From Anaerobutyricum hallii (lineage in GTDB: Bacteria > Bacillota > Clostridia > Lachnospirales > Lachnospiraceae): DNA of 64,000 nucleotides. The DNA is taken from the NCBI RefSeq assembly GCF_900209925.1, contig NZ_LT907978.1, forward strand, positions 2,141,001 to 2,205,000, in the 5' to 3' direction. Positions 45,284 through 64,000 of this stretch are shown here, one piece after another. The notes under the pieces were generated by a model that saw only the letters and a list, made by a program, of their open reading frames with translations, had not been told where the DNA came from and searched no databases. Position 1 is the stretch's first letter. Every line of letters starts with the position of its first letter. Position numbers and translations under genes: made by a program.

Positions 45284-47054
45284 TAAAATAGATAAACTAG
45301 GCGTTTGCGAAACGCCACAAGCCGCATAAATACGTCATTTTTTTGTTGTTAAAAATAAAAATCTCCTCACGGTTTGTGATATAATGGAGTTGACTAGAAA
45401 CCATAAATCACGCCCCGAAAGGAGATATGTCTATGATACCACAAAAACAACTCTCTTTGGCAGATATTTTTGAAGATTGTAAAGATATTTATGAATCTGA
45501 CAAACCTCATTTCCTTACTCTGCTCGAAAATCACATTGACCTTGATAAAATTATTCCGACTTCTTTTTACAAGCATTACTACGCATCCACTGGAAGAAAT
45601 CGTAAATATCCTTTGCATGCAATGCTTTGGGCTTTGATTATTCAACGCCTCTTTTCTATTCCAACAGATTCCCTCCTGTTAATCTTCCTTCATTATTCCA
45701 GACATCTGAGGGAATTCTGTGGCTTTACTAAAGTTCCTGACGCTTCAAAAATCACTCGTTTCAAACAGGATTTTTTAATGGACTTACAATCAGTTTTTGA
45801 TAATCTCGTAGATATCACAGAACCAATCTGCCAGGACATTAACGGTAATCTCGCCTCTATGCTTTTGTTTGATACTTCAGGGATTAAAGCATATGTGACT
45901 GAAAACAATCCCAAATACGCTAACCGCATTATTAAACAGCTTAAGTCCTATGCTAAAGCTCATAACTTCGATGATTCTTATGATCCTTACAAGGCAGCCT
46001 ATGCCTCTATGCCTGCATCCGCCGCTGCTAACCATGAAGTAAAGCAACAGTATGTGAATGGTCATTTCTGCTATGCTTATAAATTTGGCATTACGACCAA
46101 TGGACTTGGCATTGTTCGCTCCATTGATTTTTATAACAAGGATTATCTGGATTCTCACCCTGACATCATTGTTGAAAAGAAATCAAAATCTCCTGATGAA
46201 GATAAATCACTTGCCGATTCGAAAGCCTTGATTCCAACCCTTAAAGATTTCAAAGAACGGCACCCTCTTATCAATCCCAAGATATTTCTTGGTGATGCTG
46301 CCTTTGATACGATTGAAATCTACAAATCCTTATTTGAAGATTTTAAATTTCAAAAAGCATTTATTCCTTTAAAGGTAAAACTTTCACTGGATAACGTGGA
46401 TTATACATTCAATGAAAATGGTATTCCCTGCTGTCCTCATGATCCTTCACTCCCTATGAAACGGGAAGGTAGCAAGTCTCACTTAAGAAGTAATCTTCCG
46501 ACCATGAAATTTGTGTGTCCCAAAATGAAATGGGAATACAATCGTGAAGACAAATCAAAACGACGGGTGTGCCACTGCGATAATCCATGTACAACTTCTT
46601 CCTGTGGCAGAATGATTTACGTTTATCCCGAAAAAAACCTTAGAGCATACCCCGGCGTGGAGCGTGGCTCACAGGAATGGGATGACACTTACAAAATCCG
46701 AGTAAATGTTGAAAAATCAATCAACCACTTTAAAGACAGTTTTTGTGTCGCTAACCGAAAAACAACAAACGAAAAAACACTTCATGCAGATTTACTTCTT
46801 GCTGGTATATCACAGTTATTAACTGTAGTTGTTGCCGACAAAATCCATCAACGACAATACATCAGAAGTTTAAAATCTTTCATAGCCTAGGACTTACCAA
46901 CTCCATAAAGCCGAGGGCTTATTAAAGTGCGCCTAAAATGTCCGGTTATCCACTTTTTATTCCAGGATTCGTGCTAAGCACGAATCCTTCCCTGTTTAAG
47001 TTCAAGATTGTGAACGAGCATCGCGAGTTTCGCAATTACCTAAAATAGATAAAC
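45284..47054 (+). mobile_element. Insertion sequence with DDE transposase and 14-bp direct repeats
   Basis: One transposase gene lies between short inverted ends containing TTGCGAAAC (45305-45313) and GTTTCGCAA (47027-47035). An exact direct repeat TAAAATAGATAAAC lies just outside at 45284-45297 and 47041-47054, which could be a target duplication. Palindromes GGCGTTTGCGAAACGCC and ATTCGTGCTAAGCACGAAT sit near the two ends. The exact element boundaries remain uncertain within a few bases. Confidence 0.7.
45433..46890 (+). CDS. DDE transposase, IS1182/ISNCY-like
   Basis: The 485-residue protein has the DUF772-type N-terminal domain (RNRKYPLHAMLWALIIQRLF, then HYSRHLREFCGFTKVPDASK) and DDE residues at LLFDTSGIKAY, FLGDAAFDTIEIY and VEKSINHFKDS. 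A zinc-like Cys cluster CHCDNPCTTSSCGRM lies before the last catalytic block. The start at 45433 is chosen because GGAG lies eight bases upstream; the ATG at 45427 is too close. A TATAAT box precedes it near 45380. The gene seems intact. Confidence 0.88.
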   Translation: MIPQKQLSLADIFEDCKDIYESDKPHFLTLLENHIDLDKIIPTSFYKHYYASTGRNRKYPLHAMLWALIIQRLFSIPTDSLLLIFLHYSRHLREFCGFTKVPDASKITRFKQDFLMDLQSVFDNLVDITEPICQDINGNLASMLLFDTSGIKAYVTENNPKYANRIIKQLKSYAKAHNFDDSYDPYKAAYASMPASAAANHEVKQQYVNGHFCYAYKFGITTNGLGIVRSIDFYNKDYLDSHPDIIVEKKSKSPDEDKSLADSKALIPTLKDFKERHPLINPKIFLGDAAFDTIEIYKSLFEDFKFQKAFIPLKVKLSLDNVDYTFNENGIPCCPHDPSLPMKREGSKSHLRSNLPTMKFVCPKMKWEYNREDKSKRRVCHCDNPCTTSSCGRMIYVYPEKNLRAYPGVERGSQEWDDTYKIRVNVEKSINHFKDSFCVANRKTTNEKTLHADLLLAGISQLLTVVVADKIHQRQYIRSLKSFIA

Positions 47055-49985: not shown

Positions 49986-50101
49986 GAACCCCCGCAACTT
50001 TATAGATAGCAAATGTGATGTCGGAGCAAGTAAAAATGCGGCTGAGCATTTTCTACGCAGCGAAATCTTCACATGTGCTATCTATAAAGTTGCGGGGGTT
50101 C
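49986..50101 (+). repeat. Hairpin family copy A (type 1, plus orientation)
   Basis: A perfect 26-bp outer stem (49986-50011 with 50076-50101) encloses a core with CGGAGC, an inner stem AAAATGC-GGCTGA-GCATTTT and AGCGA. It stands between the convergent hicB and oadA genes and close to the oadA stop. The core matches the other five family members, whereas the outer stem sequence is unique. Confidence 0.85.
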
Positions 50102-50136
50102 GTCTGTTTTTAATCTAAATCTAAATCAATCCAATC

Positions 50137-51549
50137 CTACACTGGATATGCTCCATTCTTTACATCGGCTTTTGCAGGATCAATCTTATTCTCCTGTGCC
50201 GCTCTGTATTTAAAGAATTCGGTTGCTACCTGTGGGAACAATGCATAAGTAAGAATATCTTCGTCCTGTTCTTTCCACTGGCTCATCTCTGCCTCAATCT
50301 TAGATAATTCCGGTTCAAGAAGGTCGGCTGGACGGCAGGTAATTGGCTTTTCATCGCCGATTGCCTTTTTCTGTACTTCTTTATTCATTGGTTTTACGGT
50401 CTGGCCGTATTCTCCACGAAGAAGGGCTTTTGACTCGTTTGTAATCATTTTATAACGCTCTCCGGTAAGTACATTTAATACAGCCTGTGTTCCGACAATC
50501 TGGCTGGATGGTGTAACTAACGGTGGTTCACCGAAGTCTTTACGTACCTTTGGCACTTCCTCTAATACCTCATAGAACTTATCGGATGCTCCCTGCTGCT
50601 CTAACTGAGATACAAGGTTAGAAAGCATTCCACCCGGTACCTGATACATTAACGTCTTGATATTTACGCCAAGTACCTTTGGACTCATTAAACCATTTGC
50701 CAGATATTTCTCACGTATTGGGCGGAAATAGTCTGCAATCTCGCCTAAAAGCTTCTGGTCAAATCCTGTATCAAATTCTGTACCGCGGAATGTTTCAGCC
50801 ATAACCTCTGTTGCTGGCTGGCTTGTTCCCATTGCAAATGGTGACATGGCTGTATCAATGATATCTACGCCTGCTTCTACTGCTTTTAAGTAGGTCATTC
50901 CGCCGACACCACTGGTATAGTGTGTGTGAAGCTCAATAGGGATGTCTGTTGCCTGCTTTAATGCAGTTACAAGGCGAGTTGCTTCATTCGGCACTAAAAG
51001 TCCTGCCATATCTTTGATACAGATAGAATCTGCACCCATCTCCTCGATATTCTTAGCCGTCTTTTTCCAGTAGTCTAATGTATAGGCATCACCAATTGTA
51101 TAAGAAAGGGCAATCTGTGCGTGTCCTCCCTCTTTCTTTGTTGCATTTACCGCTGTCTGTAAGTTTCTAAGGTCATTTAAACAGTCAAAGATACGGATAA
51201 CATCAATTCCGTTTGCGATAGACTTCTGTACGAAATATTCTACAACATCATCCGGATATGGTTTATATCCTAAGATGTTCTGTCCGCGGAATAACATCTG
51301 TAACTTTGTATTTTTAAAGCCATCTTTTAATTTACGAAGTCTCTCCCATGGATCTTCCTTTAAGAAACGCAGGCAGGCATCAAATGTTGCGCCTCCCCAG
51401 CATTCTACTGCATGATAACCAACCTGATCCATCTTATCTACGATTGGCAGCATCTCCTCTGTTGTCATTCTTGTAGCAATCAGAGACTGATGTGCGTCCC
51501 GGAGAACAGTTTCAACGATTTTAACTGGTTTTTTCTTAATTTCAGCCAT
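50137..51549 (-). CDS. oadA: Oxaloacetate decarboxylase alpha-type carboxyltransferase
   Basis: The 470-residue protein matches the carboxyltransferase part of OadA and pyruvate carboxylase: ETVLRDAHQSLIATRMTTEE at the N-terminus, WGGATFDACLRFL, LFRGQNILGYK, and a metal-binding HTHYTSGVGG. It moves CO2 from oxaloacetate to carrier biotin, leaving pyruvate. It lacks the C-terminal biotin domain, which is the separate gene at 52780. It is the last gene of the five-gene minus-strand operon. Confidence 0.93.
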   Translation of the reverse strand: MAEIKKKPVKIVETVLRDAHQSLIATRMTTEEMLPIVDKMDQVGYHAVECWGGATFDACLRFLKEDPWERLRKLKDGFKNTKLQMLFRGQNILGYKPYPDDVVEYFVQKSIANGIDVIRIFDCLNDLRNLQTAVNATKKEGGHAQIALSYTIGDAYTLDYWKKTAKNIEEMGADSICIKDMAGLLVPNEATRLVTALKQATDIPIELHTHYTSGVGGMTYLKAVEAGVDIIDTAMSPFAMGTSQPATEVMAETFRGTEFDTGFDQKLLGEIADYFRPIREKYLANGLMSPKVLGVNIKTLMYQVPGGMLSNLVSQLEQQGASDKFYEVLEEVPKVRKDFGEPPLVTPSSQIVGTQAVLNVLTGERYKMITNESKALLRGEYGQTVKPMNKEVQKKAIGDEKPITCRPADLLEPELSKIEAEMSQWKEQDEDILTYALFPQVATEFFKYRAAQENKIDPAKADVKNGAYPV

Positions 51550-51621
51550 AATTTCTCCTCTTTTATTTCAAATCACGTAATGAATTACTCTTATAAAATC
51601 ATCATCAAATCTAACGATTCT

Positions 51622-52746
51622 TTATACACCAAAAATCGCCATAAAGGTTCCGGCTGCTACAGCCGTACCGATAACTCCGGCAACGTTTGGTCCCATCGCA
51701 TGCATCAGCAGGAAGTTCGATGGATCTGCTTCTGCTCCAACCTTCTGGGATACACGAGCTGCCATAGGAACGGCAGATACTCCGGCAGAACCGATCAATG
51801 GGTTTACCTTTCCTCCGGTAACCTTACACATAAGCTTTCCGAAAAGAACACCGGCTGCTGTACCAACAGCAAAAGCTACAAGACCTAATACTACAATCTT
51901 GATTGTGCTGACATTTAAGAATGCCTCTGCACTTGTTGTCGCACCAACGGATGTACCAAGAATAATAACTACGATGTACATAAGAGCATTAGACGCTGTC
52001 TCTGAAAGCTGTTTTACTACGCCGGACTCTCTGAAAAGGTTACCGAGCATCAGCATACCAACTAATGGTGCTGTTGTAGGAAGAATCAGACATACAACAA
52101 CTGTTACGACGATCGGGAACATAATCTTCTCTGTCTTTGTGACCGTTCTTAACTGTTCCATCTTGATCTGACGTTCTTTTTCTGTTGTAAGAAGCTTCAT
52201 GATCGGCGGCTGAATAATCGGAACGAGTGACATATAAGAATATGCCGCTACCGCGATCGGTCCCATTAAATCTGTCTGTCCAAGCTTTCCGGCAAGGAAA
52301 ATAGAGGTCGGACCATCCGCTCCACCGATAATGGAAATCGCTGCTGCTGCCTTTCCGTTAAATCCCATAAGCATTGCAAGGAAATACGCACTGTAAATAC
52401 CAAACTGTGCCGCCGCACCAAGCAGAAAACTTGCCGGGTTGGCAATCAGCGGGCCAAAGTCTGTCAGGGCACCAACTCCTAAGAAAATCAGTGAAGGGAG
52501 AATACTCCATTCATCTAATAAGTAAAAATAATGTAATAATCCGCCTTCTTCCATAATGGACGGATATAAGTTAACCAGCAGCATACCAAAAGAAATCGGC
52601 ACTAACAAAAGTGGCTCATATCCTTTGGCGATGGCCAGATATAAGAAGACTAAAGCAACCAGTATCATAATGAAGTTACCTGGCTTTAAGAATGCAAATC
52701 CGGTCTGTGCTGCGAGATTCGTCATTGTCTCTACAACATAACTCAT
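51622..52746 (-). CDS. oadB: Na+-translocating decarboxylase beta subunit
   Basis: A 374-residue polytopic membrane protein with about nine helices and the conserved GGADGPTSIFLAG and IGSAGVSAVPMAARVSQKVG segments, plus NFLLMHAMGPNVAGVIG. OadB/MmdB/GcdB subunits decarboxylate carboxybiotin and export about two Na+ per turnover. It is in the middle of the operon, so it can serve both carboxyltransferases. Confidence 0.95.
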   Translation of the reverse strand: MSYVVETMTNLAAQTGFAFLKPGNFIMILVALVFLYLAIAKGYEPLLLVPISFGMLLVNLYPSIMEEGGLLHYFYLLDEWSILPSLIFLGVGALTDFGPLIANPASFLLGAAAQFGIYSAYFLAMLMGFNGKAAAAISIIGGADGPTSIFLAGKLGQTDLMGPIAVAAYSYMSLVPIIQPPIMKLLTTEKERQIKMEQLRTVTKTEKIMFPIVVTVVVCLILPTTAPLVGMLMLGNLFRESGVVKQLSETASNALMYIVVIILGTSVGATTSAEAFLNVSTIKIVVLGLVAFAVGTAAGVLFGKLMCKVTGGKVNPLIGSAGVSAVPMAARVSQKVGAEADPSNFLLMHAMGPNVAGVIGTAVAAGTFMAIFGV

Positions 52747-52779
52747 AAATCTTCCTCCGTTTTATTTTGCAAATATGCT

Positions 52780-53148
52780 CTAGTTCATTGTAGCCAGTAC
52801 ATCTCCGCCTTCTACCATATCTCCAACTGCTACTTCCACACTTGCGATAACACCATCCTGTGCTGCACAGATCTCATTCTCCATCTTCATAGCCTCTAAT
52901 ACAAGAACCGCATCGCCTTTCTTTACAGAAGCACCTGCCTGTGCTTTTACTGCTACGATCTTACCTGGCATTGGTGCTGTAATCTTTACGGCACCGGCAC
53001 TTCCGGAAGTCTTTGGAGCAGCTTTCTTAGCTGGAGCCGGAGCGGCTGCTGGTGTACTTACCGGCGCTGCACCTGCTTCTCCTGCACCTAATTCTTCTAC
53101 TGCCACATCATAAGCAACACCATTAACTGTAATTCTATAATTTTTCAT
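52780..53148 (-). CDS. Biotin carrier protein of decarboxylase
   Basis: The 122-residue protein has an N-terminal strand region, an Ala/Pro linker (about 28-50) and a biotinyl domain with EAMKME, biotin on Lys88, and PMPGKIVAVKAQAGASVKKG. It shuttles the carboxyl group from the transferases to OadB. The linker gives the reach needed. GGAGG precedes the ATG. Confidence 0.95.
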   Translation of the reverse strand: MKNYRITVNGVAYDVAVEELGAGEAGAAPVSTPAAAPAPAKKAAPKTSGSAGAVKITAPMPGKIVAVKAQAGASVKKGDAVLVLEAMKMENEICAAQDGVIASVEVAVGDMVEGGDVLATMN

Positions 53149-53252
53149 TGTAAATCCTCCTGAATGATTTTATGTACTTTTAAAATCTTTCTATATCTGA
53201 CTTTTTAAAACTTTTTAAGGCTTTATAAAAAGATTCCAAGAATACATTTTTG

Positions 53253-53600
53253 CTATCTTCTCTTCACTCTCTTGATTGAACGGACAACCAGCTTATCTGC
53301 ACTTACCGCCGTACCACTACTTGCTGCCATAATGGCTGCGGTAATCACTGCGACAAGTTCACCGTCATCTACAAGTTCCTCTTCTTCTTCTGCTGCTTCT
53401 TCAATGATCGGACGCTTTGGAGCTGGTCTTTCCTCCTGCGCAGCCCTTTTCTCTTTTCTGGAAGAACGGTTCTTCAACGCTCTTTCAATGGATGGGATAT
53501 ATACAAAAAGAGAAATCAGTAAAGAAATGAAAATCAGTACTGCAAATACAGTTCCCATACCCATCAAAGTATTTAATAAGGCTTGTTCAAATACGTTCAT
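53253..53600 (-). CDS. OadG-like gamma subunit
   Basis: A 115-residue protein with one N-terminal membrane helix (MGMGTVFAVLIFISLLISLF), then a charged Glu/Pro stretch and a hydrophobic C-terminal part (ELVAVITAAIMAASSGTAVS). This is the layout of OadG/MmdD-type subunits, which assemble the complex at the membrane. It begins 12 bases after the transferase stop. Confidence 0.85.
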   Translation of the reverse strand: MNVFEQALLNTLMGMGTVFAVLIFISLLISLFVYIPSIERALKNRSSRKEKRAAQEERPAPKRPIIEEAAEEEEELVDDGELVAVITAAIMAASSGTAVSADKLVVRSIKRVKRR

Positions 53601-53612
53601 ACTCTCACCTCA

Positions 53613-55037
53613 CTATACTGCCGTATGCTTCTTTGTCACTGGAGTTACTTTCTTTCCGTAAAGCATTTCATAAGCAGCAATCAGACGCTTTCTTGTTGCA
53701 TCCGGCTCGATGATGTCATCTACATATCCTCTCTTTGCAGCTGCTAATGCACTGCTCTGTCCTTCTGCATATTCCGTAGTTTTCTCTGCAATCAATGCCA
53801 TCTTATCATCGGCAGCATCAATTTCCTCTGCATACATGATACGGACTGCCTGTTCTGCATCCATCATTCCTACAGATGCCTGTGGCCATGCCAGAACAAA
53901 GTCAGCCCCAATAGCTTTAGAATTCATTACTTCCGCAGCAGTTCCATACGCCTCGCCTGCAATGAGATTAATACGAGGTACACTAACCTGTGCAAGTGTT
54001 GTCGTAAACTTCGCTAATGCGAGTGCCTGCTTTCTCTCCTCATGGGCGTTGGCACGAAGTCCTGTCACGTTCGTTACTGTAAGAAGAGGAATCGCAAATG
54101 CATCACAGAACTTAATAAATCTTTCTGCTTTTTCAAGGCCATTCCTTGTCAAAACAGACTCTCCGTCTACCGGCTGGTTTGCAACGGCACCTACCGTCTC
54201 GCCGTTCAAACGGATAAATGCAGTTACCATCTCTTTTGCATACATTGCCTTTGTCTCTATATACATACTGCTGTCAGAAACAGCCTTTAAAATAGCAGGT
54301 GCATCATAAGCTGCATCATTCAATTCAGGAATAATTCTGTTTAAATCATCATCATTATCAAAGTATGCATCTTCTGCTTCATAATCAGAAGGAAGTACAT
54401 CAACAAGAATTCGAAGCTGTTCAAGAAGATCTTCCTCTGTTTCACAAACAAAATCTACATTACCAGCCTGCTCAGACTGGAACTGCGCTCCTGCTGTATT
54501 CTGACGGGATTCTTCATTCCCTGCTAATGCATTCGGACTGTTGATAAAGAGACTGCCGTTCTCCTTCTCCATTAATGTAAAATCAGACATAGCGGACATT
54601 ACGGCACTTCCTCCTCCGCACATTCCGAATACTGCAGAAATCTGTGGGATCATTCCGGATGCCTGTGCCTGTTTATTAAAAATAGTTCCGAAAGCATGAA
54701 GTGCATCTGTCGCTTCCTGTAATCGAAGCCCTGCACAGTCAAGCATTCCAATGATCGGTGCCCCTGTCTTCATCGCCAAATCATAAAGGGAAGAAATCTT
54801 CTTCGCATGCATCTCGCCTACAGAACCGCCCAGTGCGGAAACATCCTGACTGTAAACATAAACCATACGGTCATTAATTACTCCATATCCAGTGATAACA
54901 CCATCACCTTCCACCTTGTTCGCACCGAGATTATAATCGGTATTACGAGCAGAAACATATCCGCCAACTTCCACAAAACTGTGGTCATCAAACAGATAGT
55001 CAATACGCTCTCTGGCATTCATTTTTGAATTACCCAT
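53613..55037 (-). CDS. Acyl-CoA carboxyltransferase (MmdA/PccB-like)
   Basis: The 474-residue protein belongs to the crotonase-fold carboxyltransferases: ARERIDYLFDDHSFVEVGGY at the N-terminus, DVSALGGSVGEMHAKKISSL, FGMCGGGSAVMSAMSDFTLM, and a late AGEAYGTAAEVMNSKAIGAD. It would transfer CO2 between an acyl-CoA (methylmalonyl-CoA most likely) and biotin. It is about 35 residues shorter at the N-terminus than typical PccB. GGAGG precedes the ATG. It heads an operon that also encodes an oxaloacetate-type transferase, unusual for a single pump. Confidence 0.9.
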   Translation of the reverse strand: MGNSKMNARERIDYLFDDHSFVEVGGYVSARNTDYNLGANKVEGDGVITGYGVINDRMVYVYSQDVSALGGSVGEMHAKKISSLYDLAMKTGAPIIGMLDCAGLRLQEATDALHAFGTIFNKQAQASGMIPQISAVFGMCGGGSAVMSAMSDFTLMEKENGSLFINSPNALAGNEESRQNTAGAQFQSEQAGNVDFVCETEEDLLEQLRILVDVLPSDYEAEDAYFDNDDDLNRIIPELNDAAYDAPAILKAVSDSSMYIETKAMYAKEMVTAFIRLNGETVGAVANQPVDGESVLTRNGLEKAERFIKFCDAFAIPLLTVTNVTGLRANAHEERKQALALAKFTTTLAQVSVPRINLIAGEAYGTAAEVMNSKAIGADFVLAWPQASVGMMDAEQAVRIMYAEEIDAADDKMALIAEKTTEYAEGQSSALAAAKRGYVDDIIEPDATRKRLIAAYEMLYGKKVTPVTKKHTAV

Positions 55038-55752
55038 ATTCTTTCCTCCATAAAAAATACTATATTGTATACGTTGTTACTCTTTCATTCTATGTAATAA
55101 TAACAAATTATTATCATAATAGCAACTATTTTCTGTTAGTTATTTAACATTTATTTTATTTCACACCATCTACTAAACAAACTAAAGATTATGCCTAGTT
55201 GCAAATTTTTTAACAATTCTTTCAATTTCCTTTCTTAATTCTATATTTTTTTCGGGCGTCCTTTCGTTTTCTTCTCTTTTACTATAAAAAAATCCATAAT
55301 TACTGTTTTTATCTAATTTTATATTGTTATATTATTAACACTAATTGACATTTCATTACCATCCTACCCTGTCCACTTTTTTCGTCATTTTGCACAAAAT
55401 AGTTTCAGTATCAAAACACACTTCCGTCTTTCTATATAATTCCATTTGCAATTCAATCTTTTCAAACAAACGAACATCAAGATTTTATACACCATATTAA
55501 ATCAAAGATTTAGTATCCAAAATCAATTTTGAACTATTTTTGTCAAACTTTTTTCATAAACCAATAATGCTTCCTTTCGTTTTATGCAACTGTATATGCT
55601 ACCACAAAGTATTTTTCTAAAAAAATCAGAAAAAAATTATAAACTGCAAGAAAAACCTGTGATTTTGCACAATCGGTTCTTTATTTTTTCATCATAAACA
55701 GGTATAATATACAAAACAAAGTTTTTCTATTACAAGTAAAGGGGGATATTCC
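55038..55752. other. 715-bp divergent intergenic region
   Basis: AT-rich with no supported gene. It must contain promoters for the minus-strand decarboxylase operon and for the plus-strand PRTase gene. TATAAT at 55703-55708 suits the latter, although its -35 is weak. A minus-strand TTGACA near 55545 is followed by a TACTAA-like box. Nothing else recognisable was seen. Confidence 0.5.
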
Positions 55753-56394
55753 ATGGAAAACCGTAAAATTGAATTTCGTTCAAAAACCTGTAACCTGCAC
55801 ATTTCTGCCTATCCGGGACATTTCGCAACAAAACACTCCCACGTTAACTACTTCTTAGATATGACAACGTTAAAAATACGTCAGTCTAACGCAGAAGAAG
55901 CAGCAAAAGCTTTAGTTCCACTTTACAAACATAACACTGTCGTCGATACGATCGTATGTCTTGACGGAACAGAAGTAATCGGAGCCTTCCTTGCAGAAAA
56001 GCTGACAGAGAGTGGCTTCTTCTCCTATAACCAGCATAAGTCTATCTATATCGTTACCCCTGAAATTGATACGGATGGACAGATGTTCTTCCGCAAAAAT
56101 ATCCAACCAATGATCAAAGACAGAAATATTATCATTTTAATGGCATCCATCACAACCGGTATCACAATCAACCGAAGCTGGGAATGTATTGAATATTATG
56201 GCGGTAAGCTGCAGGGAATCTCTGCGATTTTCAGTGCCATCTCTGAATACGGTAACCTTCCTGTAAATGCATTGTTTACTACGAATGATATTCCTTCCTA
56301 TCATACATATAGCAAACACGACTGCCCATATTGCAAAAATGGACAAAAAATCGATGCGCTTGTAAACGGACATGGGTATTCCGAATTACTATAA
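55753..56394 (+). CDS. Phosphoribosyltransferase-like protein (OPRTase-related)
   Basis: A 213-residue protein with a PRTase-like Rossmann core: TIVCLDGTEVIGAFLAEKLT, then NIIILMASITTGITINRSWE in place of the usual acidic PRPP loop, and KLQGISAIFSAISE. The acidic pair preceding TTG is replaced by MAS, so PRPP binding may be altered. A C-terminal CPYC (HDCPYCKNGQK) resembles half a zinc knuckle. Related Lachnospiraceae proteins are annotated orotate phosphoribosyltransferase, but no pyrimidine genes are nearby. A good AAGGGGGA site precedes the ATG. Confidence 0.72.
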   Translation: MENRKIEFRSKTCNLHISAYPGHFATKHSHVNYFLDMTTLKIRQSNAEEAAKALVPLYKHNTVVDTIVCLDGTEVIGAFLAEKLTESGFFSYNQHKSIYIVTPEIDTDGQMFFRKNIQPMIKDRNIIILMASITTGITINRSWECIEYYGGKLQGISAIFSAISEYGNLPVNALFTTNDIPSYHTYSKHDCPYCKNGQKIDALVNGHGYSELL

Positions 56395-56422
56395 CTACTA
56401 ATTTGTGGATTTCGTATAGACG

Positions 56423-56537
56423 AAAAAAGAAAAAATAATCCATCCCATCTGCTCTGTAGTCGCTGTATTTAAGATGCTCATCCGCATCTTAAACACGCTC
56501 CCAAGCCGCATCTGGGATGGATTATTTTTTCTTTTTT
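56423..56537 (-). repeat. Hairpin family copy E (type 2, minus orientation)
   Basis: A 25-bp perfect outer stem (56423-56447 with 56513-56537) encloses a type 2 core. Read on the minus strand it gives GATGCGGCTT, GGAGCG, the inner stem TTTAAGATGC-GGATGA-GCATCTTAAA and AGCGACTACAGAGCAGA. It begins about 28 bases after the PRTase stop and has A-rich and T-rich ends like a bidirectional terminator. Confidence 0.88.
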
Positions 56538-56610
56538 CTGGCTATTCTAAATCTACAGTTGGCGAGAATGGGGGATTAAATACTAATTTATTTGAGGGAC
56601 TAAAGAAACG

Positions 56611-56728
56611 AAAAGCAGAAATTTGATAGAAAAGAAAATGTGAAGATAGTCGCTTCATAGAAAATGCCTGACCGGCATTTTTACTGGCTCCGACATCACA
56701 TTTTCTTTTCTATCAAATTTTTGCTTTT
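56611..56728 (-). repeat. Hairpin family copy B (type 1, minus orientation)
   Basis: 33-bp arms (56611-56643 with 56696-56728, one G-U) enclose a type 1 core with AAAATGCC-TGA-CCGGCATTTT and GCTCCGACATC. The outer stem is AT-rich and unrelated in sequence to the other copies. Confidence 0.88.
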
Positions 56729-56737
56729 CTGTTCTTT

Positions 56738-57042
56738 GACTCCAGATGAAAATTAGTATTTAAATCTTGGATGGGAATAAGGGGATTGCCCAAAAGGCTA
56801 TGATTTTTAATCAAAGAACTATTCCGCATAAGAAAATAGCAATAGAGGTCAAAGCCTTCCGATTAATCCGATTTCTTTCCCTATAATAATATCCTTACAA
56901 TTCCTTTTGATTTAGAAGATCGACTACAAATCCAGTGGGAAAATATTCTCCTCTGGAGATTTTTATTCTAGTGAAAACCATAGACTTCTGGACAATCCCC
57001 TCTTTTTCCCTCAGACTAAAATACTAATTTCCATCTGGAGCC
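56738..57042. repeat. 305-bp imperfect palindrome between hairpins B and F
   Basis: The ends, 56738-56759 and 57021-57042, are complementary with two mismatches over 22 bases. Inside, 56773-56792 pairs with 56989-57010 (GGGAATAAGGGGATTG with its near complement). No ORF of note is present. The segment lies between two oppositely oriented hairpins. Confidence 0.75.
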
Positions 57043-57063
57043 AACTGTGGATTTAGATAGTCA

Positions 57064-57180
57064 GAAAAAAGGAAACATGCCATATCCCAGATGCGGCTTC
57101 GGAGCGGGTTTAAGATGCGGATGAGCATCTTAAACACAGCGACTACAGAGCAGATGGGATATGGTATGTTTTCTTTTTTC
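57064..57180 (+). repeat. Hairpin family copy F (type 2, plus orientation)
   Basis: A 26-base outer stem (57064-57089 with 57155-57180) with a few G-U positions encloses the type 2 core with CTTCGGAGCG and the inner hairpin. It ends 14 bases before the stop codon of the GGDEF gene and could terminate that transcript. Confidence 0.88.
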
Positions 57181-57193
57181 GTCTACATCAAAT

Positions 57194-58342
57194 CTACAAA
57201 TTAGTACGTTTTTGTTCTTTTCGTAAATACATATCCTCGTCTGCACTATTCATAAGGTCTGGAATAGTTCTGACTTCTTTTGTAAACTGTGCACAGCCAA
57301 CGGACATTCCTATATCATATGGACAGGCCGCCTGTTTATTCGCTTTCTCCAGATTTTCATATAAGTTCTTAATCAGTCGTTCTGCATCTTCCTGAATCAT
57401 CTCTCCTGCAATACAGAATTCATCTCCGCCATATCTTGCAAGAATACCTGCATGTCCTGCCAGTGTTTTTTTCAAAACCCCTGCTATTCTTATCAATGCC
57501 CTGTCTCCTTCAACATGACCATATGTATCATTAATCTGTTTAAAATCATCAAGATCAATCATCAAAAAATGTAAATCTGTTTCTTCCCCTTCTGTATGTC
57601 TTTCCATATATCCTTCCAAATACTGCATCAGCTTTGTCCGGTTATTAATCTGCGTTAATTCATCCATTGTAATTCTATTTGTAAGAAATGCCGTAAATAC
57701 CTGAATAATTCCGAGTGTCAGTCCAAAACAAATAATAGAAATCTCTGTGAAAAACATTTGCAAAATACCTGCAATAACCGGAAATACGACCATTCCAAAT
57801 ATCATCTCCAGCTTTCCACGAAGTGCATAATACTTCTTTTGAGGAAACATTGTAAAAATGCGAAGTGTCACCAAAAAAATATAAATATAAACAAATGGTA
57901 TAATCACACCATAAAAAGATCCTCTTTGAAAAATGCCCTCCGCATCAACATAAAAGAAAAAATGCCACTTTAGTGAACAGATTGTCATAATCGTTAAAAT
58001 CACAGCCGGAATGAGACTAAGCTGTCTTTTTTTAGAATCTTCCACCCACGTTCTTCCAAGTTCACATTCCATAAACGCAAATACAAGATGCGTTAACGAA
58101 TATAACGAAACAAACATCATTACATTTACAAACTTACTCACTGTAACCGGCAAATGAATCACTGCATTCTGCTGCAGCCCATATATCATATCCAAAAATA
58201 CATATACCATCGCAGATACGATCAACTCCGTAAATGTCTGTGAAGTCAGGCGCTTATCTAATCCCTGCACCTGTTTGTGTAATATTAGCATCATAATAAT
58301 CAAACAGCAGATATTAAGTTCCAAATAAGAAATTGCATACAT
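57194..58342 (-). CDS. Membrane diguanylate cyclase (GGDEF)
   Basis: A 382-residue protein with seven or so N-terminal transmembrane helices (to about residue 215, LELNICCLIIMMLILHKQVQ onwards) and a C-terminal GGDEF domain. DELTQINNRTKLMQYLEGYM opens the domain, DLHFLMIDLDDFKQINDTYG is the substrate region and YGGDEF the intact active site. It makes cyclic di-GMP; no EAL domain is present. No I-site RxxD is obvious before the GGDEF. A weak ribosome site precedes the ATG. The gene is bracketed by hairpins F and C. Confidence 0.93.
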   Translation of the reverse strand: MYAISYLELNICCLIIMMLILHKQVQGLDKRLTSQTFTELIVSAMVYVFLDMIYGLQQNAVIHLPVTVSKFVNVMMFVSLYSLTHLVFAFMECELGRTWVEDSKKRQLSLIPAVILTIMTICSLKWHFFFYVDAEGIFQRGSFYGVIIPFVYIYIFLVTLRIFTMFPQKKYYALRGKLEMIFGMVVFPVIAGILQMFFTEISIICFGLTLGIIQVFTAFLTNRITMDELTQINNRTKLMQYLEGYMERHTEGEETDLHFLMIDLDDFKQINDTYGHVEGDRALIRIAGVLKKTLAGHAGILARYGGDEFCIAGEMIQEDAERLIKNLYENLEKANKQAACPYDIGMSVGCAQFTKEVRTIPDLMNSADEDMYLRKEQKRTNL

Positions 58343-58451
58343 GATAAAAAGCCGTTACCTTCCCAAAAAATCAAACTACTTCCATTATACTCCCCTCTCT
58401 CCACATAATCAAAATATATTTACTATTTCATTCATTTAGAAGGAGACAGAC

Positions 58452-58568
58452 GAAAATAAAAAGAATAGACCAGAGGAAATGTAAAGATATCACTGCGTAG
58501 AAAATGCCTGTTCGGCATTTTTACTTGCTCTCACATTACATTTCCTCTGGTTTATTCTTTTTATTTTC
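58452..58568 (-). repeat. Hairpin family copy C (type 1, minus orientation)
   Basis: 33-base arms (58452-58484 with 58536-58568) enclose a type 1 core, AAAATGCC-TGTT-CGGCATTTT with TTGCTCTCACAT. The inner stem differs from copy B by a compensated change in the loop-closing region. It lies about 110 bases upstream of the GGDEF start. Confidence 0.88.
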
Positions 58569-58570
58569 TG

Positions 58571-58858
58571 TTTGCTGGCTCCACGTGAATGAATGTAATA
58601 GTCTTTGAGGGAGAGAAGGAGGAGAGGTCAGTAGTCTACTGTTTGCTCGAAAGGTATATCTCGTCAGAAGAAAAAAAGATATAATGACAACTCCATCATG
58701 CACAGTGATAGCTTGCGGAATCATCTTATTATCTGTGAAACTTGAAAAAAAGGTTCAGCATAGTGAAAATGGCATCAGAATAAGCCACGACCTTCTGACT
58801 TCGCTCCCTTATCCCTCCCAAAGGCGATTACATTCATCCCTTCTAGAGCCAACACACA
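58571..58858. repeat. About 290-bp imperfect palindrome between hairpins C and G
   Basis: The left arm (about 58574-58640, TTGCTGGCTCC then GAATGAATGTAATAG) pairs with the right arm (about 58795-58858) over about 65 bases with roughly three quarters complementary. No gene is supported. Position and layout match the 56738-57042 palindrome, and the arms share related words such as GGCTCCA and GAGGGA. Confidence 0.7.
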
Positions 58859-58975
58859 GAAAAAAGAAACCATGCCATATCCCAGATGCGGCTTCGGAGC
58901 GTGTTTAAGATGCGGATGAGCATCTTAAACACAGCGACTACAGAGCAGATGGGATATGGCATGGTTTCTTTTTTC
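58859..58975 (+). repeat. Hairpin family copy G (type 2, plus orientation)
   Basis: A perfect 26-bp outer stem (58859-58884 with 58950-58975) encloses a type 2 core almost identical to copy F. It ends 13 bases before the stop codon of the isomerase-like gene. Confidence 0.9.
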
Positions 58976-58987
58976 GTCTGTTTTCCC

Positions 58988-60001
58988 CTAATGAATCGTA
59001 ATCCATTTCAAAATTTTACTTTGGGCTTCTACAAATTGTTCATATTCTTCCCGGCTGTTTTGCTGATATTCCAGTGTGATATACTTTGGTGCTACGCGTT
59101 CTACGAATTCCCGGACACCTTTTCCGATAAAAGGCTGATGCAGATCAATATGACAGGCATGGTCATATGCAAGGCGAAATAGTTCATAAAATGGAATCTT
59201 ATCAAAGTCTATCGGATGTTCTCTCCATTCTTTTCGCTGCTTTCTTACATAATCGCCTCCAAGTGACAGCTGCAGGTGCATTCCTTTGAACCAGTGGAGC
59301 ATCTGTGCTTTTTCGTATTTGTCTATCATTTTATTCAGATATGCTACGGCATCTTCCGGAGTCTTTAACTGTGTTGTTGTATTCATATAATGCCCGGTAT
59401 CGAGCATGATTCCCTTTCTTTGTGTATGCATTCCTTCTATAAGCCGGCGGGTAAGGCGGACATTTTTTAAGGTAAGACCGCTCCACCAGAGATTCTCTAC
59501 AAGAAAGTCGAATGGATATTCTTTTTCGTCAAGGAGGGTATTGATGACCTCTAAGCTTGCATCAATCACTTCTTTATCTGTATAGCGGTATTTATAAATA
59601 TAGCTCTCCCGGAGTGTCACTTCCGAAACATGGAAAACTACATACTTTGCTCCGACTTGTTCTGCATAGGCAAGATCATCCCGCAAACTGTTCAGATAGA
59701 ATTCCCTGCTCATTCCTCCAAAGTATTCCAGCCACTGCTCTCTTGAATCAAATTCCTGATCTAGGCGTTCATAATTTCCCTTCCACCAGTCCATCCAGAA
59801 AATATGAAAATACAGATGTACCCCGTTCACCATATCTGGCAGAATCTTTCCTTCATCTGGCTCGCCTGCCCGAATCACTTCCAATCCATTTAATCCTCGT
59901 GACTCATAGGACTTTCTGATATCTTCACTGTCTTTATAACGATTTAGCATCCCTTCATAAATTGAAAAATTCATGGAACGACATTCTGGTATTTTTTGCA
60001 T
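58988..60001 (-). CDS. Xylose isomerase-like TIM-barrel protein
   Basis: The 337-residue protein fits the AP endonuclease 2/xylose isomerase-like TIM-barrel superfamily: GLNGLEVIRAGEPDEGKILP, YVVFHVSEVTLRESYIYKYR, FLVENLWWSGLTLKNVRLTR, MLDTGHYMNTTTQL, and HWFKGMHLQLSLGGDYV hold the metal-binding strand ends (His, Glu, Asp-x-Gly-His, His). It may isomerise or epimerise a sugar or act on a related metabolite. The ATG at 60001 has AAGGGGGA. Substrate unknown. Confidence 0.8.
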   Translation of the reverse strand: MQKIPECRSMNFSIYEGMLNRYKDSEDIRKSYESRGLNGLEVIRAGEPDEGKILPDMVNGVHLYFHIFWMDWWKGNYERLDQEFDSREQWLEYFGGMSREFYLNSLRDDLAYAEQVGAKYVVFHVSEVTLRESYIYKYRYTDKEVIDASLEVINTLLDEKEYPFDFLVENLWWSGLTLKNVRLTRRLIEGMHTQRKGIMLDTGHYMNTTTQLKTPEDAVAYLNKMIDKYEKAQMLHWFKGMHLQLSLGGDYVRKQRKEWREHPIDFDKIPFYELFRLAYDHACHIDLHQPFIGKGVREFVERVAPKYITLEYQQNSREEYEQFVEAQSKILKWITIH

Positions 60002-60136
60002 ATTTTCCCCCTTCAATCTCGTATACTCTCAGAATCTTTCTAAGAATACATTTTATCTATACTTATCATCTATACTTATTTCAAAAATCCCCGGTATTCT
60101 GGCAATCTTTCTAAAATTCAAGAACGCCCCGGCTAT

Positions 60137-62949: not shown

Positions 62950-63891
62950 TCATTCAACTTCCCACAAACGGTACCCAGCCTGTGCTGCACTTTCTACCTG
63001 TCCTCTTCTCGCCTTCCACATCCTTCGGTCTAAAATCTCCATCGCTACTGGCATGATACTAAACAATAAAAAAGGTGCAAAAACAAGCAAGCTGCCTGCT
63101 GTAAAGGGTACTCCCTTTACGACGATTCGAGGATTATAAGAACAAAATGCATACCCCTTTGAAAAGCCCCACATCGCTGCTCCGAATGTAAGGATCATAA
63201 AAATAAAGCACAAAAAATCCCTTTTATCGAAATGATATAAGGAAAAGGCGGTTCTGCCCTTCTCTCCATATCCCCGGCACTTCATTGAATCCGATGTTTC
63301 AATCGCATTCTCCAAAGACCAGGTAACCAGAATCGAAAAAATCGTAATCCCATGCTTTGCTCTCTTAATAAGGCTCCCATTCTCTACACTTCGCCCGACA
63401 CACTTTTGCCCATCAGAAATAACAGATGCTTCTTTGATAAACTTCGGTACAAAGCGAAGGCACATGGAAAGTACTAAAGAAAGTGCCGGGATAATCCTTC
63501 CAAAAAGATAAATAAACTTATCTGATGTCATAACAACTGTGTAGCAGGAAAACCATACAAGAGTACATACCAGCATCACTGCCATCACAAGACCGTACAC
63601 ACAACTTTCTAATGTAAACGGATTTCCATTATGAAGATATCCTATAATCGTTACTCCATAATGATTAAACATCGGATTGATCAGGGCAACAATGATCATC
63701 ATCGGTAATGAGAAGAGCAGATTAAACTTTACTGTCTTTTTCCATCCTTTTAAAACAACGGAATACGCAACAGCGCATATAAATGAAATTGCCAGAATCA
63801 CAGGGTGAACAACAAACATCGTCACCCCGATCGTCCCACAAAAATACAGCATATTTAAAACAGGATGATATGTCGAAAATGTATCTTTCAT
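62950..63891 (-). CDS. ecfT: ECF transporter T component (EcfT)
   Basis: A 313-residue membrane protein with about six helices. Two cytosolic coupling motifs typical of EcfT are visible as RFVPKFIKEASVISDGQKCV and ETSDSMKCRGYGEKGRTAF. It links the double ATPase to the S component. No strong ribosome site lies right before the ATG except a GGAG within a 16-bp tandem repeat, 11 bases away. Confidence 0.92.
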   Translation of the reverse strand: MKDTFSTYHPVLNMLYFCGTIGVTMFVVHPVILAISFICAVAYSVVLKGWKKTVKFNLLFSLPMMIIVALINPMFNHYGVTIIGYLHNGNPFTLESCVYGLVMAVMLVCTLVWFSCYTVVMTSDKFIYLFGRIIPALSLVLSMCLRFVPKFIKEASVISDGQKCVGRSVENGSLIKRAKHGITIFSILVTWSLENAIETSDSMKCRGYGEKGRTAFSLYHFDKRDFLCFIFMILTFGAAMWGFSKGYAFCSYNPRIVVKGVPFTAGSLLVFAPFLLFSIMPVAMEILDRRMWKARRGQVESAAQAGYRLWEVE

Positions 63892-63895
63892 CTAA

Positions 63896-63975
63896 ATCAA
63901 ATCTCCATTACATCAAATTTCTATTATATCAAGTCTTTATTAGATTAAATCTCTATTAGATCAAATCTCTATTTC
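63896..63975. repeat. Five 16-bp tandem repeats upstream of ecfT
   Basis: Units of the form ATCAAATCTCTATTAG start at 63896, 63912, 63928, 63944 and 63960, with one to three differences each. They directly abut the ecfT start, so their number would change the distance between promoter and gene. Confidence 0.85.
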
Positions 63976-64000
63976 ATACATCCTTAATACATCGAATTAT

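Follow-up and report, generated by a model that had tools for sequence, protein, structure and literature searches.

What are the long hairpins that recur in this DNA, and what keeps their stems paired? The question is raised by a stretch of 64,000 nucleotides (nt) from an Anaerobutyricum genome (RefSeq assembly GCF_900209925.1, contig NZ_LT907978.1, positions 2,141,001 to 2,205,000), here called the window, in which six large hairpins share a core. An original prediction, made from the letters of the window alone, described these hairpins as a family with no known name. We propose that they belong to a giant, lineage-limited, non-autonomous palindromic repeat located at gene 3′ ends, similar in kind to the repetitive extragenic palindromes (REPs), bacterial interspersed mosaic elements (BIMEs) and REPINs. 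The probability that we assign to this reading is roughly 0.55. That the repeat is mobile DNA is suggested by its copy number, its species limits and its modular arrangement.

All six of the predicted hairpins were located, at 49986, 56422, 56610, 57064, 58452, and 58859, and the conserved core is real, as its exact pattern occurs three times in the window against 0.01 expected. The division into two subtypes also holds: the GCAGA hairpins are our type A (56422, 57064, 58859), and the TCACAT hairpins comprise types E0, B2, and B (49986, 56610, 58452). Five of the six lie within two larger composite palindromes, termed EI and EII. The features of the locus are as follows, the sign of a hairpin being the strand that bears TCGGAGC or its equivalent.

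49986..50101, plus strand: solo hairpin of type E0, 116 nt, TCACAT subtype, with feet ACA / GTCTG
56396..57206, no strand assigned: composite element EI, with type I arms, in the order outer arm, hairpin A, middle arm with hairpin B2, hairpin A, outer arm
56392..56421, plus strand: left outer arm of EI, CTACTAATTTGTGGATTT, directly after the TAA (56392-56394) of gene 55753-56394
56422..56538, minus strand: hairpin of type A within EI, 117 nt
56610..56729, minus strand: hairpin of type B2 in the middle arm of EI, 120 nt
57064..57180, plus strand: hairpin of type A within EI, 117 nt
57181..57206, minus strand: right outer arm of EI, holding the stop TAG (minus strand, 57194-57196) of gene 57194-58342(-), which is GGDEF-like by eye
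58427..58999, no strand assigned: composite element EII, with type II arms, in the order outer arm, hairpin B, middle arm, hairpin A, outer arm
58452..58568, minus strand: hairpin of type B within EII, 117 nt
58589..58837, no strand assigned: middle arm of EII, an inverted repeat whose halves, 58589-58634 and 58792-58837, are 157 nt apart
58859..58975, plus strand: hairpin of type A within EII, 117 nt
58976..58999, minus strand: right outer arm of EII, holding the stop TAG (minus strand, 58988-58990) of gene 58988-60016(-)

The inverted arms of EI, 56396-56545 and 57057-57206, are 87% complementary, and the element folds as DNA at -235.7 kcal/mol (z = -29.5, 20 shuffles). EII, whose DNA fold has a z of -14.4 (100 shuffles), is predicted to form a four-way junction. 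Six genomic copies of the EII layout were folded, the window copy included, and the junction is predicted in the other five as well. The A copies at 57062-57184 and 58857-58979 are 96% identical, and the three A copies of the window have most of the stem in common, with differences that fall for the most part in a zone some twelve pairs long. The outer stems had been said to differ completely; they are indeed unrelated between some subtypes, but those of the three A copies are largely alike.

The family reaches high copy number in this genome, which is a single contig of 3.5 Mb. The exact core pattern occurs 38 times, and its reversal never. When up to three mismatches are allowed, A-type cores number 193 in the window's genome and 12 in A. 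hallii DSM 3353, seven of the latter carrying three mismatches, and B-type cores (B plus B2) number 97 and 2, respectively; palindromic copies may score twice in these counts, and the reversed A and B patterns, used as a control, are absent from both genomes. Rarer types besides A and B exist in the window's genome. With EII as the query, BLAST returns 225 pieces across it.

Outside these genomes little is found. A covariance model, the check suggested with the original prediction, was built from 22 hairpins and finds further copies in 2 of 116 genomes. In the window's genome, 150 of 150 scored candidates match (out of 2588 first-look candidates), with E-values from 7e-27 at best to 5e-22 at worst. 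A. hallii DSM 3353 has at least 31 matches, and the other 114 relatives' genomes, where stricter filters were applied, have none. Of 24 genus genomes searched by BLAST with EII, three gave matches, one of them (G009) weak, at E 1.7e-4. Distant blastn of phage and plasmid collections with EII gave no match, nor did a search of viral contigs with two exact patterns. Across a collection of genome contigs the core pattern occurs in five stretches, three of them from A. hallii; the others, from an Acidobacteriota metagenome-assembled genome and Vannielia, are taken as chance matches. The assembly of draft genomes may have dropped hairpins of this kind, and the family may be under-counted. An Rfam scan of the window gave no match at gathering score. 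We did not find the repeat described in published literature on Anaerobutyricum or Eubacterium hallii, on Lachnospiraceae RAYTs (REP-associated tyrosine transposases), on REPs at stop codons, or on miniature inverted-repeat transposable elements (MITEs). The main texts of PMC13155455 and PMC12306157 do not mention Anaerobutyricum. As a separate observation, no hairpin lies between 1479337 and 1831901 (about 1.48-1.83 Mb of the window's genome) among the model matches listed, and the stretch holds one B-type core, at 1812795; this is perhaps a regional effect.

Hairpin anatomy was studied in merged stretches totalling 458 kb, or 13% of the window's genome, that were mostly picked for carrying repeats. 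They contain 220 long hairpins, detected through their pairing, of which 205 were assigned to the family by score. The length is 117 nt in 153 of the 205. Read on the core strand, 188 have the left foot CA (in the forms ACA, TCA, GCA, or CCA) and 172 have the right foot GTCT, after a paired C, so that the feet read CA/G...C/GTCT. In A-type stems (n = 116), pairs 1-11 and 21-26 are nearly invariant, and pairs 12-20 are strongly variable, with 52 distinct sequences that are mostly still paired. The A-type core is mismatched in a fixed manner: pairs 27, 28, and 32 are G.A, A.G, and G.A in 135, 140, and 141 of 141 hairpins, a G.G mismatch is kept in 135 of 141, and a GAG bulge is present in all 116 A-type hairpins. 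For a comparison of nine types, of which A. hallii supplied one, a single hairpin was chosen per type and the 5′-arm lengths were used, as the 3′-arm values are faulty for H_403k and 59k. The arm from foot to GAGC measures 37-40 nt in all nine. The outer stems of the nine have a median identity of 0.30, against 0.31 for shuffled sequences, and a range of 0.13-0.70; types that are alike include A and B (0.61), B2p and E0 (0.61), and B2 and B2p (0.70).

Two other kinds of hairpin were noticed. A further large type, 151-164 nt long, has a conserved centre of its own, TTTTGTTCCGTTGCGCTAAACGCTTCATTTTGCC ... CAGCGCAAAGTCACAAAA, and a variable outer stem; examples lie at 319268-319418 and 2385484-2385647 of the window's genome and on A. 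hallii contig C62 (L063:43-197). These hairpins occur in or near type I elements, and similar DNA is present at no fewer than a dozen other examined places. Hairpins of 71 nt at 162300-162370 and 2762573-2762643 resemble type A with the core deleted between short repeats.

Neighbouring hairpins are arranged in pairs. Of those less than 1.5 kb apart, 75 of 96 are inverted in the order -+, with their feet outward. The -+ pairs closer than 650 nt (n = 69, B2 being counted as B) consist of 44 A-B, 18 A-A, and 1 B-B, with 6 that include another type. Many hairpin copies are flanked by inverted outer arms, that is, by terminal inverted repeats, which are of two kinds: type I, TAAATACTAATTTGTAG, and type II, TAACTATTTGATTCATTAG. 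In the stretches chosen for hairpins, 52 of 55 and 57 of 60 outer arms have a hairpin within 80 nt. Beside one type I element lies a 1.7 kb sequence (L124:5385-7093, 331384-333092) that is 97-100% identical at four other genome places; the same arrangement of this sequence with the repeat recurs at 347502-349928. It is probably an insertion sequence adjoining or within a repeat.

The position of the hairpins relative to genes is equally regular. The gene contexts come from a simple longest-open-reading-frame script, not from annotation. Of 159 hairpin-cluster edges that face gene 3′ ends, 120 come within 36 nt of the stop codon, 3 lie 37-100 nt from it, and 36 are beyond; two of the 120 close edges overlap the open reading frame (ORF). 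Among edges facing gene 5′ ends, 21 of 87 are within 36 nt. The original prediction noted several copies close to gene stops, and the stop codons are in fact found at the arms or within them. For the 118 edges that are 1-36 nt from the stop, the distribution over the three frames is 48/36/34. Both the type I and the type II arms carry stops in three frames, and the genes use all of them; we attribute the spacing of hairpin to stop to this property of the outer arms. Of 128 clusters, 50 lie between convergent, 59 between tandem, and 14 between divergent genes, some of the last having negative distances and probably being artefacts; three are at segment edges and two are inside an ORF. The background, taken from the window alone, is 6/16/7 for 29 gaps, the window's own hairpin loci included. 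In the 50 convergent clusters, the number of genes that end within 36 nt of the repeat is two in 23, one in 26, and zero in 1. All 122 hairpins located at most 60 nt from a stop are oriented alike with respect to the gene, as assigned by a score that uses the feet and the core. Since the pair is symmetrical, this uniformity mainly means that an outer arm faces the gene.

Covariation in the stems is strong. In the alignment of 22 hairpins, two-sided changes occur at 36 of 46 pairs, and none of 500 shuffles reaches any of five measures; in the outer helix, 161 cells are two-sided, 2 are one-sided wobble, and 18 are unpaired. A set found by pairing comprises 116 A, 35 B, and 14 B2 hairpins, with 189, 71, and 38 two-sided cells, respectively, and 29, 5, and 3 broken ones. 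Of these 37 broken cells, 17 are G.T and 10 are A.C on the core strand. The A hairpins of this set were selected with a motif in which parts of the 5′ strand of pairs 25-32 are fixed. Because a set found by pairing hides badly paired copies, type A was recounted on copies located by the core alone. Of 155 such copies, 147 have at least 20 of the 26 outer pairs and 105 have all 26. The 142 with a best length of 117 (13 of other length were dropped) contain 282 two-sided and 78 broken cells among 3692, and the broken cells divide into 35 G.T, 18 A.C, and 25 other. The core pattern used in the recount spans the same 5′ side, with up to three mismatches, hence the 3′ partners alone are free to vary in these numbers.

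The original prediction regarded the covariation as strong evidence for selection on structure. The strength of the covariation stands, but covariation alone is not proof of such selection, as copying of one arm into the other gives the same result. Given near-perfect pairing, with changes that are mostly two-sided and Watson-Crick and with few wobble intermediates, template switching from arm to arm in DNA could account for the covariation no less well than an RNA helix. Template switching at inverted repeats has been published, and in passages of PMC8794818 and PMC8604942 it includes arm homogenisation and spacer inversion, which would explain the near-perfect stems, flipped cores, and palindromes seen here. 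Products of this kind are a perfect palindrome at 2515235, a core that is flipped against its feet at 3183509, and a hairpin of A. hallii that is an A/B chimera, half of each type, as expected of a template switch. Template switching is, however, a mutational mechanism and not an element family. It does not explain the mismatched core or the narrow range of arm length, and we therefore infer that the retention of both reflects selection.

We propose the following model. The family would have spread as non-autonomous mobile DNA by means of a protein acting in trans, which would recognise the conserved core and the feet of a single-stranded or cruciform hairpin. The stem between foot and core would serve as a spacer, whose length and pairing matter and whose sequence does not. 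Template switching during replication would copy changes in one arm to the other, keeping the stem nearly perfect, and would occasionally flip or palindromise the core. Insertion right behind stop codons may be tolerated or favoured, the arms supplying stops in every frame, and the hairpin might act as a bidirectional 3′ end.

Comparison with relatives, for which one genome per species was used, bears on the model as follows. The E0 hairpin is present in A. hallii with one difference inside the hairpin, and its left flank is unrelated. At the EI locus of A. hallii, the right hairpin is of A-type, and the left is a different large hairpin. A genus member without a model match (G018) has a convergent gene pair with 3 nt between the stops, which amounts to a near-empty site. 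In the window's genome each gene of this pair meets a type I outer arm, and the interval of about 6 kb between them includes other genes and the repeated 1.7 kb element. Both proteins have the same end length in the two genomes (codons compared by eye), and it follows that at this site the repeats abut native stops and the genes have not been truncated. A further set of compared loci was chosen in such a way that hairpins are present in both species, and is thus uninformative on empty sites.

Several observations weigh against a mobile repeat. At two loci on one A. hallii contig (C33), the stop is conserved and is followed by a hairpin of another stem type, so that what is seen there is replacement in place, not simple insertion. 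None of the loci compared is a clean single-insertion empty site between close species. No target-site duplication was recognised by eye in six EII-type copies, and no mobilising protein was found, the seven Y1 transposase loci described below showing no clear link to the repeats. Selection for a role as terminators or in 3′ untranslated regions could produce the same positions, and the species limits may in part reflect hairpins lost from draft assemblies. Lastly, the excess of G.T over A.C on the core strand (35 versus 18) is not required by a pure DNA model and hints at some pairing selection on that strand or at a mutation bias.

Regarding the enzyme, the original prediction suggested looking for an associated TnpA or RAYT gene. 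The window's genome contains seven loci with a Y1 transposase (PF01797). The four that were opened have ORFs of 115-144 residues resembling the TnpA of IS200/IS605, three of them beside a TnpB-like ORF by eye. A family hairpin is found in the ±1.5 kb flanks of two of the seven, about 1 kb away, where by a rough estimate chance would give about one hairpin neighbour. The expected link was not borne out, and a RAYT-linked REP reading is unsupported. An autonomous element between paired hairpins was also considered and rejected: in -+ gaps of 430-1500 nt, the longer ORFs are by eye ordinary genes or an insertion-sequence fragment. No parent transposon with the same ends was seen in the 458 kb sample.

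How, then, does the family compare with known systems? According to passages of PMC3733652, REPs are 20-40 bp long with stems of 5-13 bp and include palindromes with an unpaired GTAG or CGTC tag at one end. REPs and BIMEs are extragenic there, form head-to-head dimers, have complementary stem variants, lie at 3′ ends, and can supply stop codons from their ends. The present family is likewise made of high-copy extragenic palindromes that are often hetero-dimers, lie at 3′ ends or between convergent genes, and supply stops. In contrast, most of its units measure 117 nt, their stems exceed 25 bp, they contain an inner hairpin and have large arms, and no RAYT link was found. The CGTC tag resembles the foot C/GTCT, at least in its letters. 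Given the larger units, the lack of a RAYT link, and the ambiguous tag, we do not file the family under REPs and say only that it works like one. In the portion of PMC3116915 that concerns us, REPINs have two inverted conserved parts and a spacer that retains its length and pairing as its sequence shifts in a compensatory manner, which is what is seen here; they are associated with a RAYT gene and with short 16-mer REPs, and no such link was found for our hairpins. With MITEs (reviewed in PMC10969869), the family shares non-coding sequence, inverted terminal arms, and high copy number; it differs from them in its modular hairpins, and neither a parent insertion sequence, in the 458 kb sample, nor a target-site duplication, by eye, was found here.

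We entertain, tentatively and as rather improbable, a variant in which the units are mobile 3′-end cassettes: hairpin modules would be placed precisely at stop codons and be swappable at a locus, with an enzyme that measures the arm of about 37-40 nt from foot to core while disregarding most of its letters, and with stems renewed by template switching.

A non-mobile explanation, possible though in our estimate rather improbable, is that the hairpins are domesticated 3′-end elements, either terminators (perhaps bidirectional) or stabilisers of 3′ untranslated regions, kept by host selection, with types exchanged by recombination. An intrinsic terminator is a hairpin close behind a stop codon, with a GC stem followed by a U-tract. 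The tight placement behind stops fits this explanation, as do the greater share of convergent contexts (50/59/14 of 128 clusters versus 6/16/7 of 29 window gaps), the conserved stops followed by different hairpins at both C33 loci, and the T-rich tracts in which A and B stems close at their 3′ arm ends. The T-tract is not universal, however, as types E0 and H end in GGGGTTC / GGCTTC / GGGAGC. Moreover, a terminator needs neither a stem of more than 25 bp nor a core of fixed mismatches and a bulge, the hairpin heteropairs and the species-limited burst of copies resemble mobile DNA, and a genus member, G018, has no hairpin at a shared site.

It is unlikely that the conserved outer arms, rather than the hairpins, define the unit, as the ends of an insertion-sequence- or MITE-like element. 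Two kinds of conserved inverted arms do stand at the element ends. But arms and hairpin types are not tied to each other, as either can be combined with different kinds of the other, and the intervals of 430-1500 nt between -+ hairpins showed no transposase gene bearing these ends.

Least probable, and very much so, is a large structured non-coding RNA family (a riboswitch, small RNA, or RNA mobile element) with helices selected as RNA: six EII-type copies with their flanks (581-636 nt) do fold as RNA at -237 to -292 kcal/mol, the covariation is strong, and G.T exceeds A.C on the core strand in both counts (35 versus 18, and 17 versus 10 in the pairing-found set), but wobble cells are far outnumbered by two-sided ones (35 versus 282), the core is antisense to the abutting gene in 122 of 122 cases so that in the transcript of that gene the excess appears as A.C, the two hairpins of a pair are oppositely oriented, and the window lacks an Rfam match. 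Frequent G.T pairs in GTAG REPs have been read as a sign of RNA function, in a passage of PMC3733652.

Two features of the window lie apart from the hairpins. Four degenerate copies of a 21-nt sequence (TAGATTAAATCTCTATTAGAT-like) occupy 63893-63977, just upstream of a predicted gene, 62950-63891(-), and are possibly a regulator-binding array. An ORF of 487 residues at 45427-46890 resembles a DDE transposase by eye and is without visible link to the hairpins.

If the family is the repeat that we propose, the REP/BIME idea would take in repeats of a gut lineage that are several times the usual size and apparently have no RAYT linked to them. Some genes in this organism have a 3′ end, and in certain cases a stop codon, that is formed by a repeat. 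The family offers hundreds of natural replicates for telling selection on a helix from template switching in DNA, the latter being a general pitfall when compensatory changes are used to infer RNA motifs. Finally, orthologous gene ends carry different hairpin modules in two species, and this makes insertion, replacement, and termination directly testable.

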